Shown here piece by piece: positions 5,184-58,556 of a stretch of DNA of 64,000 nucleotides; within the stretch, counting starts at the first letter, position 1; every line of letters starts with the position of its first letter. The notes under the pieces are model-generated. The model did no database searches and was not told where the DNA came from. It worked only from the letters and a program-made list of their open reading frames with translations. Location of the stretch: positions 1-64,000 of the forward strand of contig JAGQWR010000030.1 in assembly GCA_020437105.1 (NCBI GenBank), in the 5' to 3' direction. This stretch comes from Saprospiraceae bacterium. Lineage in GTDB: Bacteria > Bacteroidota > Bacteroidia > Chitinophagales > Saprospiraceae. The translations under genes were made by a program, and so were the position numbers.

Positions 5184-7511
5184 ATGAAATTTTTCCCTTT
5201 TACCCTTGTTTTCCTATTGTTTACCTGTTTTAGTTTTGGACAGAAAGCAGTCTTATATGGTACCATTACGGATGGGGAGACCTCTGAAGCTTTGTTTACG
5301 GCTAGTGTTCGTGTTGGCGCTGTCGGTGTAGTTGCTGATCTCGATGGTCGCTATCGACTCGAACTGGATCCAGGTACCTACGCCGTAGAATTTACCTATA
5401 TCGGCTATACCAAATACAAACCGACCGTTACCCTGACCGCGGGCCAGGAGCTGGAACTTAATGTAACGCTCTCGGAAGCAGCAACTCTGCTGAGCACAGC
5501 CACGGTAACCAGTGGGAAGTACGAAAAACCACTTGGGGAGGTAACGGTTTCACTGGAAGTGCTCAAACCCGGCTTGATCGAAAGAAGTAATACCGTTACT
5601 GTTGATCAGGTTCTGGAAAAAGTGCCGGGTGTCAATATCATTGGCGGACAGGCAAATATTCGGGGAGGCTCCGGATTCTCTTATGGAGCGGGTAGCCGGG
5701 TACTGTTATTGATTGATGACATTCCGATTCTCCAGGCCGATGCCGGATTTCCGCAATGGGATGATGTGCCGATTGAAAGTATTGGTCAGATTGAGGTGCT
5801 AAAAGGGGCTGCCTCTGCTCTTTACGGATCGTCTGCGCTTAATGGGATTATTAATGTGCGTACCGCTTACGCGAAATCGGAACCAGAAGGCAAAGTTGCA
5901 TTGTTCCATACCAACTATTTTTCTCCTTCCGATCCGGACAAAAAGTGGTGGGGAGATCGAAAACCTTATGAATCAGGTTTGTCCTTTTCCTATAAACAGA
6001 AAATTAAAAAACTGGATCTGGTAATTGGTGCTTTTGCTATAAACCGCAGAAGCTTTAACCAGGCAACCGGAGCAAGTTATCAGCGGCTTAATTTAAATAC
6101 CCGTTATCGGTTTACAGACAAGTTTAGTGTCGGGTTAAATGGCAATATCAATGTGGGTAGTTCGTCTTCCTTTTTTTATTGGGCGAATGCCGAATCTGGT
6201 GCCCACCAGGGCAATGCCATGAGTTTATCCAACTCGCGTCGCTTTCGTTATAACCTGGATCCATTTGCTACTTATTTTGACAATGCCGGCAATCGGCATA
6301 AACTCATGGGGCGCTTTTACAATGTGGAAAACCAGTCGTTGAGCTCTGAGTCAGATCAGTCTAACTCCTCTGATTTTTATTATTCTGAATACCAGTTTCA
6401 GCGAAATATGACTGGAGTCGAATTGGTATTCACTGCCGGTTTAGTCGCTTCCGGCACCAATGTGATTGCACCGCTTTATGGTGATGTAAATTTCCTTTCC
6501 AGGAATTATGCTGCGTATGCCCAGTTGGATAAAAAATTCTTCAATCGCTTGAATCTTTCGGCCGGATTCCGCTATGAGCAAAATCGGATTATCAATCCCG
6601 GTTATGCTATTCTGGGTGGAAACATGGGGCAGGACACTTTGGCCGCGGTCAATCCATCCGATGAAAATGAAGCCAAACCGGTGTTTCGCTTAGGTGCTAG
6701 TTTTCAGGTGACAGAATATACTTTTCTCCGGGCTTCCTGGGGTCAGGGGTACCGCTACCCAACAGTAGCTGAGCGCTATATCTACACTGATATTGGAGCC
6801 GTAAATATTATTCCAAATGAGCTGTTGCAATCAGAAACCGGCTGGTCTGCCGAATTAGGCATTAAGCAGGGTTTCCGGATAGGAGAGTTTAACGGTTTCC
6901 TGGATATCGCCGCCTTCTGGACGGAGTATCAGGACATGATGGAATTTAACTTTACCGGATTTGAAGGATTCCAGTCGCAGAATGTGGGCGGAACAATCAT
7001 AAAAGGGGGAGAGTTTACGATTGCCGGCGAGGGAAAACTTTTTGGTTTGCCTACCTCCGTATTAGGTGGCTACACCTACATCGATCCAAAATTCAAACAA
7101 TTTGATAACACCTTACCCGGCTTTGGAGAAACTCCTACAGAGGGGCAGATAAATGCTGCCAACTCCTCAGAGGATTTTAATGTCCTGAAATATCGGAACC
7201 GCCATACCTATAAATTTGACATTGAAACCCGTGTAAAATCCTTCTCTATTGGATTGGCTATGCTAGGTGCAAGTACGATGGAGGCAGTAGATCTCATTTT
7301 TGAAGGCCTTGTCGTTCCGGGGTTGGGTAAATATCGCGACGAGCACAATAAGGGCTACCGGGTGTTTAATGCCCGTATTGGGTATAATTTTAATGAGAAA
7401 CGCAGACTTTCGCTCTTGCTCAACAACCTGACTAATGAGGAGTATGCTGTGCGGCCTGGTCTGCTCGAAGCCCCTCGCAACCTGAGTGTGCGCCTGGATT
7501 TTGGGTTTTAG
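5184..7511 (+). CDS. TonB-dependent receptor with carboxypeptidase-like N-terminal domain
   Basis: 775 residues. Order: signal peptide (1-19), a carboxypeptidase-regulatory-like beta sandwich (about 20-100, GTITDGETSEALFTASVRVG ending in VTLSEAATL), a TonB plug (about 110-230, with VDQVLEKVPGVNI, IRGGSGFSYGAGSRV and IEVLKGAASALYGSSALNGII), and a large beta barrel ending in Phe (RLDFGF). It is an outer-membrane, TonB-powered importer. There is no SusD partner next to it, so a glycan-utilisation role is not indicated; the substrate (siderophore, cobalamin, metal, peptide) cannot be told. It is flanked by a divergent T9SS cargo gene and by repeat DNA downstream. Confidence 0.93.
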   Translation: MKFFPFTLVFLLFTCFSFGQKAVLYGTITDGETSEALFTASVRVGAVGVVADLDGRYRLELDPGTYAVEFTYIGYTKYKPTVTLTAGQELELNVTLSEAATLLSTATVTSGKYEKPLGEVTVSLEVLKPGLIERSNTVTVDQVLEKVPGVNIIGGQANIRGGSGFSYGAGSRVLLLIDDIPILQADAGFPQWDDVPIESIGQIEVLKGAASALYGSSALNGIINVRTAYAKSEPEGKVALFHTNYFSPSDPDKKWWGDRKPYESGLSFSYKQKIKKLDLVIGAFAINRRSFNQATGASYQRLNLNTRYRFTDKFSVGLNGNINVGSSSSFFYWANAESGAHQGNAMSLSNSRRFRYNLDPFATYFDNAGNRHKLMGRFYNVENQSLSSESDQSNSSDFYYSEYQFQRNMTGVELVFTAGLVASGTNVIAPLYGDVNFLSRNYAAYAQLDKKFFNRLNLSAGFRYEQNRIINPGYAILGGNMGQDTLAAVNPSDENEAKPVFRLGASFQVTEYTFLRASWGQGYRYPTVAERYIYTDIGAVNIIPNELLQSETGWSAELGIKQGFRIGEFNGFLDIAAFWTEYQDMMEFNFTGFEGFQSQNVGGTIIKGGEFTIAGEGKLFGLPTSVLGGYTYIDPKFKQFDNTLPGFGETPTEGQINAANSSEDFNVLKYRNRHTYKFDIETRVKSFSIGLAMLGASTMEAVDLIFEGLVVPGLGKYRDEHNKGYRVFNARIGYNFNEKRRLSLLLNNLTNEEYAVRPGLLEAPRNLSVRLDFGF

Positions 7512-7512
7512 T

Positions 7513-7549
7513 GTTCGCTTCGCGAAGGTTTGAAACGTTTAAATCGTGA
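7513..7549 (+). repeat. Dispersed element, TTCGCTTCGCGAAGG type
   Basis: Starts two bases after the receptor stop codon: TTCGCTTCGCGAAGG followed by a TTTGAAACGTTTAAATCGT tail. Close relatives lie at about 38371-38420, 38593-38640 and, inverted, 60070-60110. The first part is a small palindrome. All copies are intergenic. Confidence 0.7.
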
Positions 7550-7554
7550 AGTTT

Positions 7555-7590
7555 CATTCAAAATTAAAAATTAAGACTTAAGAATTCTTT
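7555..7590 (+). repeat. AT-rich dispersed element ending TTAAGACTTAAGAATTC
   Basis: A run of AATTAAAAATT followed by TTAAGACTTAAGAATTC. Similar strings occur at about 42944-42973, 62078-62112 and, more diverged, 62187-62220, always between genes and always next to other repeat families. Confidence 0.7.
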
Positions 7591-7858
7591 AGGTCTATTC
7601 GGCTTCGCCGATGGGTCTATTGCCTTCGGTTTTGGACTATAGTTCGCTTCGAGGTGGACTTGTCGATCCTCGACCTTCGACAGGACGCAGCCCTCTCAAT
7701 AGACTAAATTTCCGATCAGGAAATCAATAGATCCAACGGTCTGAAAGACCGAATAGACCAAAAGGCTAAAAGCCTGAATAGACTCCTAGACCGGGCGCAG
7801 CCCCTAGACCGCGAAGCCGAAAGGCAAGCTAGACCAGGCCAAAGGCCCTAGACCAAAA
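7591..7858. repeat. Mini-hairpin array with GTCTATT/AATAGACC separators
   Basis: This is the bulk of the 415-base gap after the TonB receptor. Short stems (CGGCTTCGCCG; TTTCC-gatca-GGAAA; GGTCT-gaa-AGACC; AGGCT-aaa-AGCCT; GGGC-gca-GCCC; GGCC-aaa-GGCC) are separated by GTCTATT in the left part (7593-7599, 7615-7621) and by the reverse complement AATAGACC or CTAGACC in the right part. The arms can thus pair with each other, giving a multi-branched fold. No open frame worth calling lies here. See the finding on this family. Confidence 0.75.
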
Positions 7859-7926: not shown

Positions 7927-8529
7927 ATGAATATATCTAAACCGCTCCCTTTGTTTATGGCCTTTGTGGGTCTCCTTTTTGCTTCCTGTGGCCCAAACGG
8001 CCCTGATTTGGATCCTATTTCTATTTCCGGAACCATTTTGTGTTACAATGGCGCTCCAATGGAGGGTGTCAATATCCAGGTCACGAATGACCCAAATGGT
8101 CAGATTGAAACCACTACGGATGCAAATGGCTACTTCATCATAGAGGATTTAGTGTCTGATCTTGACTATAGTATCAAGGTGTTCTATTTTGATGGATCCC
8201 TGCTTGATGATCAGGATCAGGAGATGTTGAAAGACTATATTACGTTTGGTGCTACCAATCTGGATGATCTTCAATTGTTGATGCTCGATTTTGATTTGTC
8301 GGGCACCAACTCCCTGCAGGCAATCTATGCTGAGGTAGAAGACCTTATTTTAAATACCGTTTCAACTCCTTGGCGTTTTGCCACTTCGGATTATGAAGCT
8401 CCTTCACCAACTAATCCAACTGGTACCGGCCAGACAGATAATTTCAATGTGATCGCTCCACAAAGCGATGTCGTAATTGATATGATTGGGGTGAAAATGG
8501 GTGACCTAAACGGTAGTTCCTGTAATTAA
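7927..8529 (+). CDS. Lipoprotein with carboxypeptidase-regulatory-like domain
   Basis: 200 residues from the ATG at 7927, preferred over an upstream in-frame ATG at 7876 because it begins a proper lipoprotein signal with lipobox FASC (Cys21). Residues about 32-90 (ISISGTILCYNGAPMEGVNI, then TTDANGYFIIEDL and YSIKVFYFDG) form a Cna-B/carboxypeptidase-like sandwich with an internal disulfide-prone Cys. The C-terminus (about 115-200) ends in VIDMIGVKMGDLNGSSCN, a GVKxGDxNG tail common in secreted Bacteroidota proteins next to dockerin-like or sorting regions. Likely surface or periplasmic; no catalytic function is visible. Followed by a strong terminator. Confidence 0.7.
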   Translation: MNISKPLPLFMAFVGLLFASCGPNGPDLDPISISGTILCYNGAPMEGVNIQVTNDPNGQIETTTDANGYFIIEDLVSDLDYSIKVFYFDGSLLDDQDQEMLKDYITFGATNLDDLQLLMLDFDLSGTNSLQAIYAEVEDLILNTVSTPWRFATSDYEAPSPTNPTGTGQTDNFNVIAPQSDVVIDMIGVKMGDLNGSSCN

Positions 8530-38359: not shown

Positions 38360-38811
38360 GGATTTCTATTTCTGTGTTCGCTGCGCGAAAGTTTAAATCG
38401 TTTTACGCGTTTAAAACGTGGTCTTGTGATTCTGTGGTCGAGTTGGTTAGTTGGTTAGTGGGTTAGTTTTCAGTGAGTTAGTGACCTCAGTAAAAATTAA
38501 TCCCGATAGCTATTGGGACAGCATTCAAAAATTCTGTCTGTCTATTCCACCTTTGGTGGTTTGGTCTATTGCCTACGGCTTGGGTCTATTTTGTTCGCTT
38601 CGCGAAGGTTTGACCCGTTTAAATCGTTAAAACCGTGAATATATCGATCACTAGACAGGGCGCAACTCTCAACCCTCCTTATAGACCAAAATTTCCGCCA
38701 GGAAATTAAATAGACCCAAAAGGTCTGAAAGACCGCTTCGACCCAAGCCAAAGGCTTCGACCTTAGACCTTCGACCAGGCGATAGCCTGCCAACTCAAAC
38801 TCCCTCCCGTA
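38360..38811. repeat. Repeat-rich gap with mini-hairpin array, GTTAGT strings and other families
   Basis: The 580-base gap between nhaD and dusB holds at least four repeat types: the TTCGC element twice (38371-38420 and about 38593-38640); GGTTAGT/GTGAGTTAGT strings (38428-38485); a CCCGATAGCTATTGGGA near-palindrome (38504-38520); and a mini-hairpin array (38535-38790) with GTCTATT on the left, TAGACC on the right, and stems CCACC-ttt-GGTGG, GCC-tac-GGC, TTTCC-gcca-GGAAA, GGTCT-gaa-AGACC and GCC-aaa-GGC. I see no gene in it. Confidence 0.75.
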
Positions 38812-57841: not shown

Positions 57842-58109
57842 TTGTCTAACTGATTAAGGGGTGTGGTCAAAGTTAAACAAAATGTTTGTTATCCTGGTTG
57901 GTTTAAAATATTTTATTTCAAGTGTAATTCAAACTCAAACTACCTCCGCTTCTCGTCGTGGGGAGTGCGCGCCTACGGCTTGCGGGGGAGTGCTTGCCTG
58001 CGGCTGCGCGGGGGAGAATCAGCTGCGCTGATTGGGGAGAATGCACTGCGTACTCTCACACTCACACTCACACTCACACTCAAACCCACACTCACACTCA
58101 AACTACCCC

Positions 58110-58310
58110 AAGTCTATGCCTACGGCTTGGTCTAGGCGGCCTTTCAGGCCTGCCGGTCTAGGTGTTTCCTTCCCGGAAATACGGTCTATTATTCAACCTG
58201 CCAAACTTAGACCGCGAAGCTCAGACCACAATGCAGAAGGCAAGCTAGACCGGGCCAAAGGCCCTAGACTGCCAGTTTATTGTCGATTTGCCATGTAGTT
58301 AAAGTTCTCA
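58110..58310. repeat. Direct repeat, copy 1 (201 bases)
   Basis: Differs from copy 2 (58356-58556) at two positions that I can see (GTGTTTCC/GTATTTCC and CATGTAG/CATGCAG). Inside lies a mini-hairpin array: GCC-tac-GGC, GGCC-tttca-GGCC, TTCCttccCGGAA and GGCC-aaa-GGCC divided by GTCTA/TAGAC strings. Confidence 0.9.
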
Positions 58311-58355
58311 AACTCAAACTCACACTCAAACTCAAACTCACACTCAAACTACCTC

Positions 58356-58556
58356 AAGTCTATGCCTACGGCTTGGTCTAGGCGGCCTTTCAGGCCTGCC
58401 GGTCTAGGTATTTCCTTCCCGGAAATACGGTCTATTATTCAACCTGCCAAACTTAGACCGCGAAGCTCAGACCACAATGCAGAAGGCAAGCTAGACCGGG
58501 CCAAAGGCCCTAGACTGCCAGTTTATTGTCGATTTGCCATGCAGTTAAAGTTCTCA
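58356..58556. repeat. Direct repeat, copy 2 (201 bases)
   Basis: Second member of the pair, offset 246 bases. The 45 bases between copies, and the bases after copy 2, are ACTCAA/ACTCAC hexamers, so the hexamer array may have mediated the duplication by unequal exchange. Confidence 0.9.

Follow-up and report, generated by a model that had tools for sequence, protein, structure and literature searches.

Arrays of mini-hairpins on short separator words, a lineage-specific, structured intergenic repeat in a Saprospiraceae genome

Between a TonB-dependent receptor gene (positions 5184 to 7511, + strand), whose closest named relatives belong to the Saprospiraceae, and a small gene encoding a carboxypeptidase-regulatory-like domain (about 7930 to 8529, + strand), a first-pass annotation made from the letters alone had described an array of mini-hairpins divided by complementary separators. 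The window in which it lies is the stretch of 64,000 nucleotides at the start of contig JAGQWR010000030.1 of a Saprospiraceae bacterium. Is the array real, what kind of element is it, and in which nucleic acid does it fold?

Anatomy of the array at 7591 to 7858

The array is real. Counting perfect stems of at least 4 bp with loops of 3 to 5 bases, we identified seven nonoverlapping hairpins in 7591 to 7858, whereas dinucleotide shuffles gave 2.1 ± 1.2 and only 1 of 1,000 shuffles reached seven. The folding z-scores of the region were -4.0 for the + strand as RNA, -3.3 for the - strand as RNA, and -3.9 for DNA. The following elements were recognized.

7591 to 7858, + strand: whole array, the reported finding, with a left arm carrying GGTCTA and a right arm carrying TAGACC
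7592 to 7621, - strand: left arm, consisting of GGTCTATT (7592), the hairpin TCGGC-TTC-GCCGA (7599 to 7611), and GGTCTATT again (7614)
7662 to 7674, + strand: hairpin GTCGA-TCC-TCGAC, located centrally, with one arm on either side
7700 to 7760, + strand: module H23, with ATTTCC-GATCA-GGAAAT (7708 to 7724), CGGTCT-GAA-AGACCG (7737 to 7751), and TAGAC separators; 17 genomic copies aligned
7763 to 7775, + strand: hairpin AGGCT-AAA-AGCCT, flanked by TAGAC separators
7787 to 7853, + strand: module R3, with GGGC-GCA-GCCC, GC..GCC-GAAA-GGC..GC, and GGCC-AAA-GGCC, with TAGACC ahead of each hairpin; 27 genomic copies aligned

The separators are as first described, with the two copies of GGTCTATT on the left and TAGAC(C) on the right, the latter at 7700, 7754, 7779, 7787, 7805, 7830, and 7849. 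In the whole window, AATAGACC occurs 9 times (1.6 expected) and CTAGACC 10 times (3.5 expected), and neither count was matched by any shuffle. The proposal that separators of the two sides pair, so that the array folds as a long arm bearing side hairpins, agrees with the predicted folds, in which the opposed separators pair with a probability of ~0.7 to 0.9; in other two-arm copies, the predicted value is up to 0.99. Across the entire window, Rfam 15 gave no match at the gathering score. A repeated module, TTCGCTTCGCGAAGGTTT..CGTTTAAATCGT, often stands ahead of arrays, in the window at 7512 to 7560 and 38590 to 38640.

Hairpin units, paired changes, and the loop rule

From between separators of this genome we extracted 213 units, 138 of them distinct, and 121 of the 138 distinct units form hairpins, versus 38 in shuffles. 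The stems are mostly 3 to 6 bp long, with a few of 8 to 9 bp. On the TAGACC strand, the loops are almost always G/A-N-A, or G-N-N-A if four bases long, and include GAA, GCA, GTA, AAA, ACA, ATA, GACA, GAAA, GTCA, and GGCA; AAA, the most common single loop, falls outside the GNA rule. GNA loops make up 30% of triloop hairpins in intergenic DNA versus 13% in coding DNA, and closure by a C-G pair was seen in 68 of 98. Loops of the GNA and GNNA types closed by two or more G-C pairs are described as extraordinarily stable DNA mini-hairpins (PMC4686876).

The stems had been said to vary freely with compensatory changes. This does not hold within one array, where the hairpins belong to different families, but it does hold between loci, among copies of one module. 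In the 27 copies of R3, 95.5% of cells are paired, a value matched by none of 500 shuffles, and three pairs carry double changes; the first three helices have no broken cell, and both sides have changed there, for example from G-C to A-T or from C-G to T-A. In the 17 copies of H23, 86.4% of cells are paired, and double changes occur at three of the five pairs of the second stem, which exists as GGTCT/AGACC, GGCCT/AGGCC, GGTTT/AAACC, and GGTCA/TGACC. These values support a conserved structure, as first proposed. Such paired changes may reflect selection or templated correction of quasi-palindromes, and the copies compared, lying within one genome, are paralogues. Since templated correction could also yield changes on both sides, paired changes alone cannot tell selection from copying between arms. 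Taken as a whole, the interpretation first offered is partly supported.

As to the folded form, the loop type favors DNA, and a signal in sense-strand RNA is made less likely by the absence of a fixed orientation to the genes of tandem gaps, neither of which is proof. RNA parameters yield predicted structures similar to the DNA ones, and in this genome the separator strand folds only slightly better than its complement. A comparison of G-T with A-C mismatches between strands gave no clean signal, and symmetric scoring invents hairpins.

Distribution in the genome and in relatives

The window holds four arrays, three of them in addition to that at 7591 to 7858.

38538 to 38772, + strand: second array, arranged <<<>>>>, with TCGACC variants
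58108 to 58275, + strand: third array, two-arm form <<<<>>>
58354 to 58521, + strand: fourth array, repeating the third almost identically in tandem at a distance of 246 bp

Individually, the third and fourth arrays are not hairpin-rich compared with shuffles. The near-identical 246-bp duplication that they form spans the whole two-arm array together with its ACTCAAACTC flank. A second separator system, with hairpins spaced by GGGGAGT or GTGGAG/ACTCCAC, was also seen in this genome (window positions 57955 to 58045; locus L154, 1346 to 1432).

In the genome as a whole (G000; a draft of 5.27 Mb in 229 contigs, 97.8% complete), we counted 332 TAGACC-spacer-TAGACC pairs (reversed control, 40), whereas none of 59 relatives has more than 10. 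The six-letter word was used, as TAGAC alone gave an uninformative reversed-pattern control (243 + 243). Five contigs (C4, C15, C22, C86, and C124) start inside or near an array, so that the arrays probably break the assembly and the copy counts are lower bounds; on the practical side, assemblies may be broken by such arrays. The arrays are assembled from a limited number of modules whose order recurs, and they run either one way or as two opposed arms around a core. Tandem amplification is seen in the 246-bp duplicate of the window and at locus L049, with six consecutive GGGCGCAGCCC units, and the arrays of locus L048 include 7-bp runs that lack hairpins. No array matches were found in plasmids, phages, or viral contigs.

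Among 50 arrays in ~1.1 Mb of sampled sequence, 49 are intergenic by crude open reading frame calls. By the same crude calls, and in a sample partly selected for the presence of arrays, we found arrays in 16 of 66 gaps between convergent genes, 16 of 275 between tandem genes, and 9 of 156 between divergent genes (odds ratio for convergent gaps, 5.2; P = 1.2e-5). In tandem gaps, eight arrays run with transcription and six against it, showing no bias. Array orientation relative to GC skew or replication strand (19 of 29) was not significant.

The same design was found in relatives, built on other words. A sister genome of the same genus (G001) has 94 CTCAACC pairs (control, 6), a pair type with no occurrence in G000, as well as one clear TAGACC array (L095), and 7 of its 11 classified arrays lie in convergent gaps. 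In a family member of another genus (G004), 118 TCTCGC pairs were counted, some plain tandem repeats among them, versus 4 in the control. Its stems of 2 to 5 bp (GC/GC, AC/GT, AT/AT, GCC/GGC, ATGCC/GGCAT, and GTGCC/GGCAC) enclose loops that are nearly always G/A-N-A. All 13 distinct short units of G004, hand-picked from printed places with one nonfolding 10-nucleotide spacer excluded, are paired, and reshuffling of partners did as well in 3 of 100,000 trials. When a 302-nucleotide composite was compared with 199 family genomes, nothing real was found outside G000, the sole other hit (in G179) having no array. The architecture therefore recurs across lineages while the separator and the hairpins change. 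Runs of 7 bp that lack hairpins also occur in other genera.

Two further observations were made. Genome G080 has 159 GCRAAGC pairs (reversed control, 36) and recurring units, GCGAAGCCGCCGCAAAGGAGCGAAGC among them, and may hold another such system. The gaps 3' of relatives of the TonB receptor gene at three loci (L118, L119, and L124) contain unrelated quasi-tandem repeats with an inverted complement after them; of these loci, L118 and L124 are apparently orthologous, yet their gap sequence is fully different.

Known repeats and competing explanations

The arrays are neither canonical REP elements nor CRISPRs, as had been surmised. The foot of a REP hairpin bears the tetranucleotide GTAG/GTGG or CGTC (PMC6006769, PMC3733652), whereas the separators here are TAGACC, CTCAACC, and TCTCGC. 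Basal REP stems measure 7 to 20 bp; those found here are mostly 3 to 6 bp (a few of 8 to 9 bp) in G000 and 2 to 5 bp in G004. Many interspersed intergenic copies are present, as in REP elements, but in G000, a draft genome 97.8% complete, and in G001 we found no cognate Y1 transposase gene with the repeats on either side. Instead of CRISPR repeats there are words of 6 to 8 nucleotides, and the spacers, which are palindromes, turn up again at many loci. From ERIC, an enterobacterial element of about 126 bp, the arrays are set apart by architecture only. This is a real, lineage-specific, structured intergenic repeat whose closest kind is REP/BIME. With REP, BIME, and REPIN elements it shares multiple copies, intergenic location, palindromic and species-specific sequence, frequent inverted doublets, and a short conserved word 5' of the hairpins; it differs in having several distinct hairpins per separator in long head-to-tail arrays and no linked RAYT.

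Other likenesses are more distant. The TAACTGA heptamer repeats of Beggiatoaceae and some Bacteroidetes are likewise lineage-specific intergenic runs of a 7-nucleotide word (PMC4679880), but they are plain tandem repeats located mostly near start codons, whereas here hairpins stand between the words and gaps between two 3' ends are favored. In the P6b region of the Nostoc trnL intron, degenerate heptanucleotide repeats pair into a stem of variable length and the repeat class shifts between lineages; as far as the cited accounts go, that is a single locus in a group I intron RNA, not dispersed and with no side mini-hairpins described (PMC3488679, PMC4476775). DNA mini-hairpins of the d(GCGAAGC) type share the GNA/GNNA loop and the short G-C stem, and G004 uses GC-GAA-GC itself, but the portion of the source cited treats them as oligonucleotides and tools, not as genomic arrays (PMC4686876). 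The short, abundant palindromes of Volvox, thought to be selfish, belong to organelle genomes according to the part of that account used here (PMC2670323). Our literature search, which covered few subscription journals, found no description of such arrays.

The reading that we tentatively favor, at somewhat less than even confidence, sees in the array one of many copies of a species-specific repeat of intergenic DNA, which folds in the single-stranded state and is retained at the 3' ends of transcripts. Its build is directly observed: tiny G/A-N-A (or G-N-N-A) hairpins on a separator of ~7 nucleotides, often in two opposed complementary arms. The data also directly establish that the arrays are dispersed and amplified in tandem, that their stems change in pairs, that their loops follow a rule, that they favor convergent gaps, and that the separator is replaced from one lineage to another; DNA as the folded form, the mechanism of amplification, and a role at transcript ends are inferred. 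Three features favor folding as single-stranded DNA: the loop rule holds on one strand, the stems are very short, and the arrays have no direction relative to transcription. The separator strand would most likely fold into a branched hairpin or a cruciform, either as lagging-strand template or when extruded under supercoiling. Hairpin units may be gained and lost by replication slippage between separators, which the repetition of whole units favors, and copying between arms within a hairpin could maintain stem pairing through sequence change. Composites shared by distant loci require dispersal in addition. Copies would build up and persist where promoters are undisturbed, particularly between convergent genes; there the structure probably has the further effect of marking or protecting the ends of transcripts coming from both directions.

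It is also conceivable, but rather unlikely, that the arrays are RNA-level elements, i.e., structures transcribed at 3' ends, where they terminate or protect the mRNAs arriving from both sides, and selected for their RNA fold. Their concentration between convergent genes, the stable predicted folds (z-scores of about -4) with arm-to-arm pairing, and the presence of canonical terminators at no more than 5 of the 32 convergent ends next to arrays are consistent with this. However, the terminator deficit is not significant (5 of 32 versus 26 of 100; P = 0.34), and the arrays lack the design of intrinsic terminators, as their hairpins lead into a separator and not into a T tract. The balanced direction in tandem gaps (8 versus 6) and the 9 arrays in divergent gaps also argue against an RNA element, and the 2-bp stems of G004 look too short for stable RNA hairpins.

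No more probable is a neutral satellite, in which heptamer slippage and template switching at quasi-palindromes make and correct functionless hairpins that convergent gaps merely tolerate. The hairpin-free 7-bp runs at L048 and in other genera fit this explanation, as do the unrelated quasi-tandem repeats with inverted complements in corresponding gaps of other Saprospiraceae, and templated correction would yield paired changes without selection. Copying between arms does not explain, however, why the loop rule holds on the separator strand in about a dozen hairpin families of three genomes, and slippage without dispersal would not place identical modules in identical order at dozens of loci far apart.

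A bolder reading, which we regard as similarly doubtful, is that selection conserves the shape itself, a single-stranded DNA architecture of short separator, GNA/GNNA mini-hairpins, and opposed arms, while lineages swap the word and the hairpin set. This would make the arrays a new class of Saprospiraceae repeat and imply a cellular factor that reads the shape and coevolves with the word.

Mobilization as single-stranded DNA by a REP/RAYT-type Y1 (HUH) transposase recognizing separator plus hairpin is very improbable: the intergenic, interspersed, species-specific copies with inverted doublets and a short conserved word before the hairpin behave like REP elements (PMC6006769, PMC3733652), but there is no GTAG/CGTC tag, the stems are mostly of 2 to 6 bp and not 7 to 20 bp, and, while Y1_Tnp (PF01797) genes are present in G000, G001, and G004, neither the one in G000 nor the two in G001 have arrays around them. 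The sole Y1_Tnp gene of this genome is flanked by unrelated hairpins, and the two of the sister species likewise have other hairpins at their sides. A link to a reverse transcriptase was likewise rejected, as the sister species G001 has arrays yet no RVT_1.

If the favored reading of a DNA repeat folding when single-stranded is true, the arrays would show the most stable known DNA mini-hairpins in natural use on the scale of a genome and would be a case of architecture outlasting sequence between sister species. They would then offer a way to study the origin, spread, and tolerance of hairpin DNA in the chromosomes of bacteria, and transcript termination between convergent genes in Bacteroidota.

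A separate structured element was seen at locus L044 (330 to 1020), where a tRNA gene, apparently for Met, is split by a group I intron (Rfam RF00028, 756 to 956) that carries a 147-amino-acid ORF, possibly a homing endonuclease.
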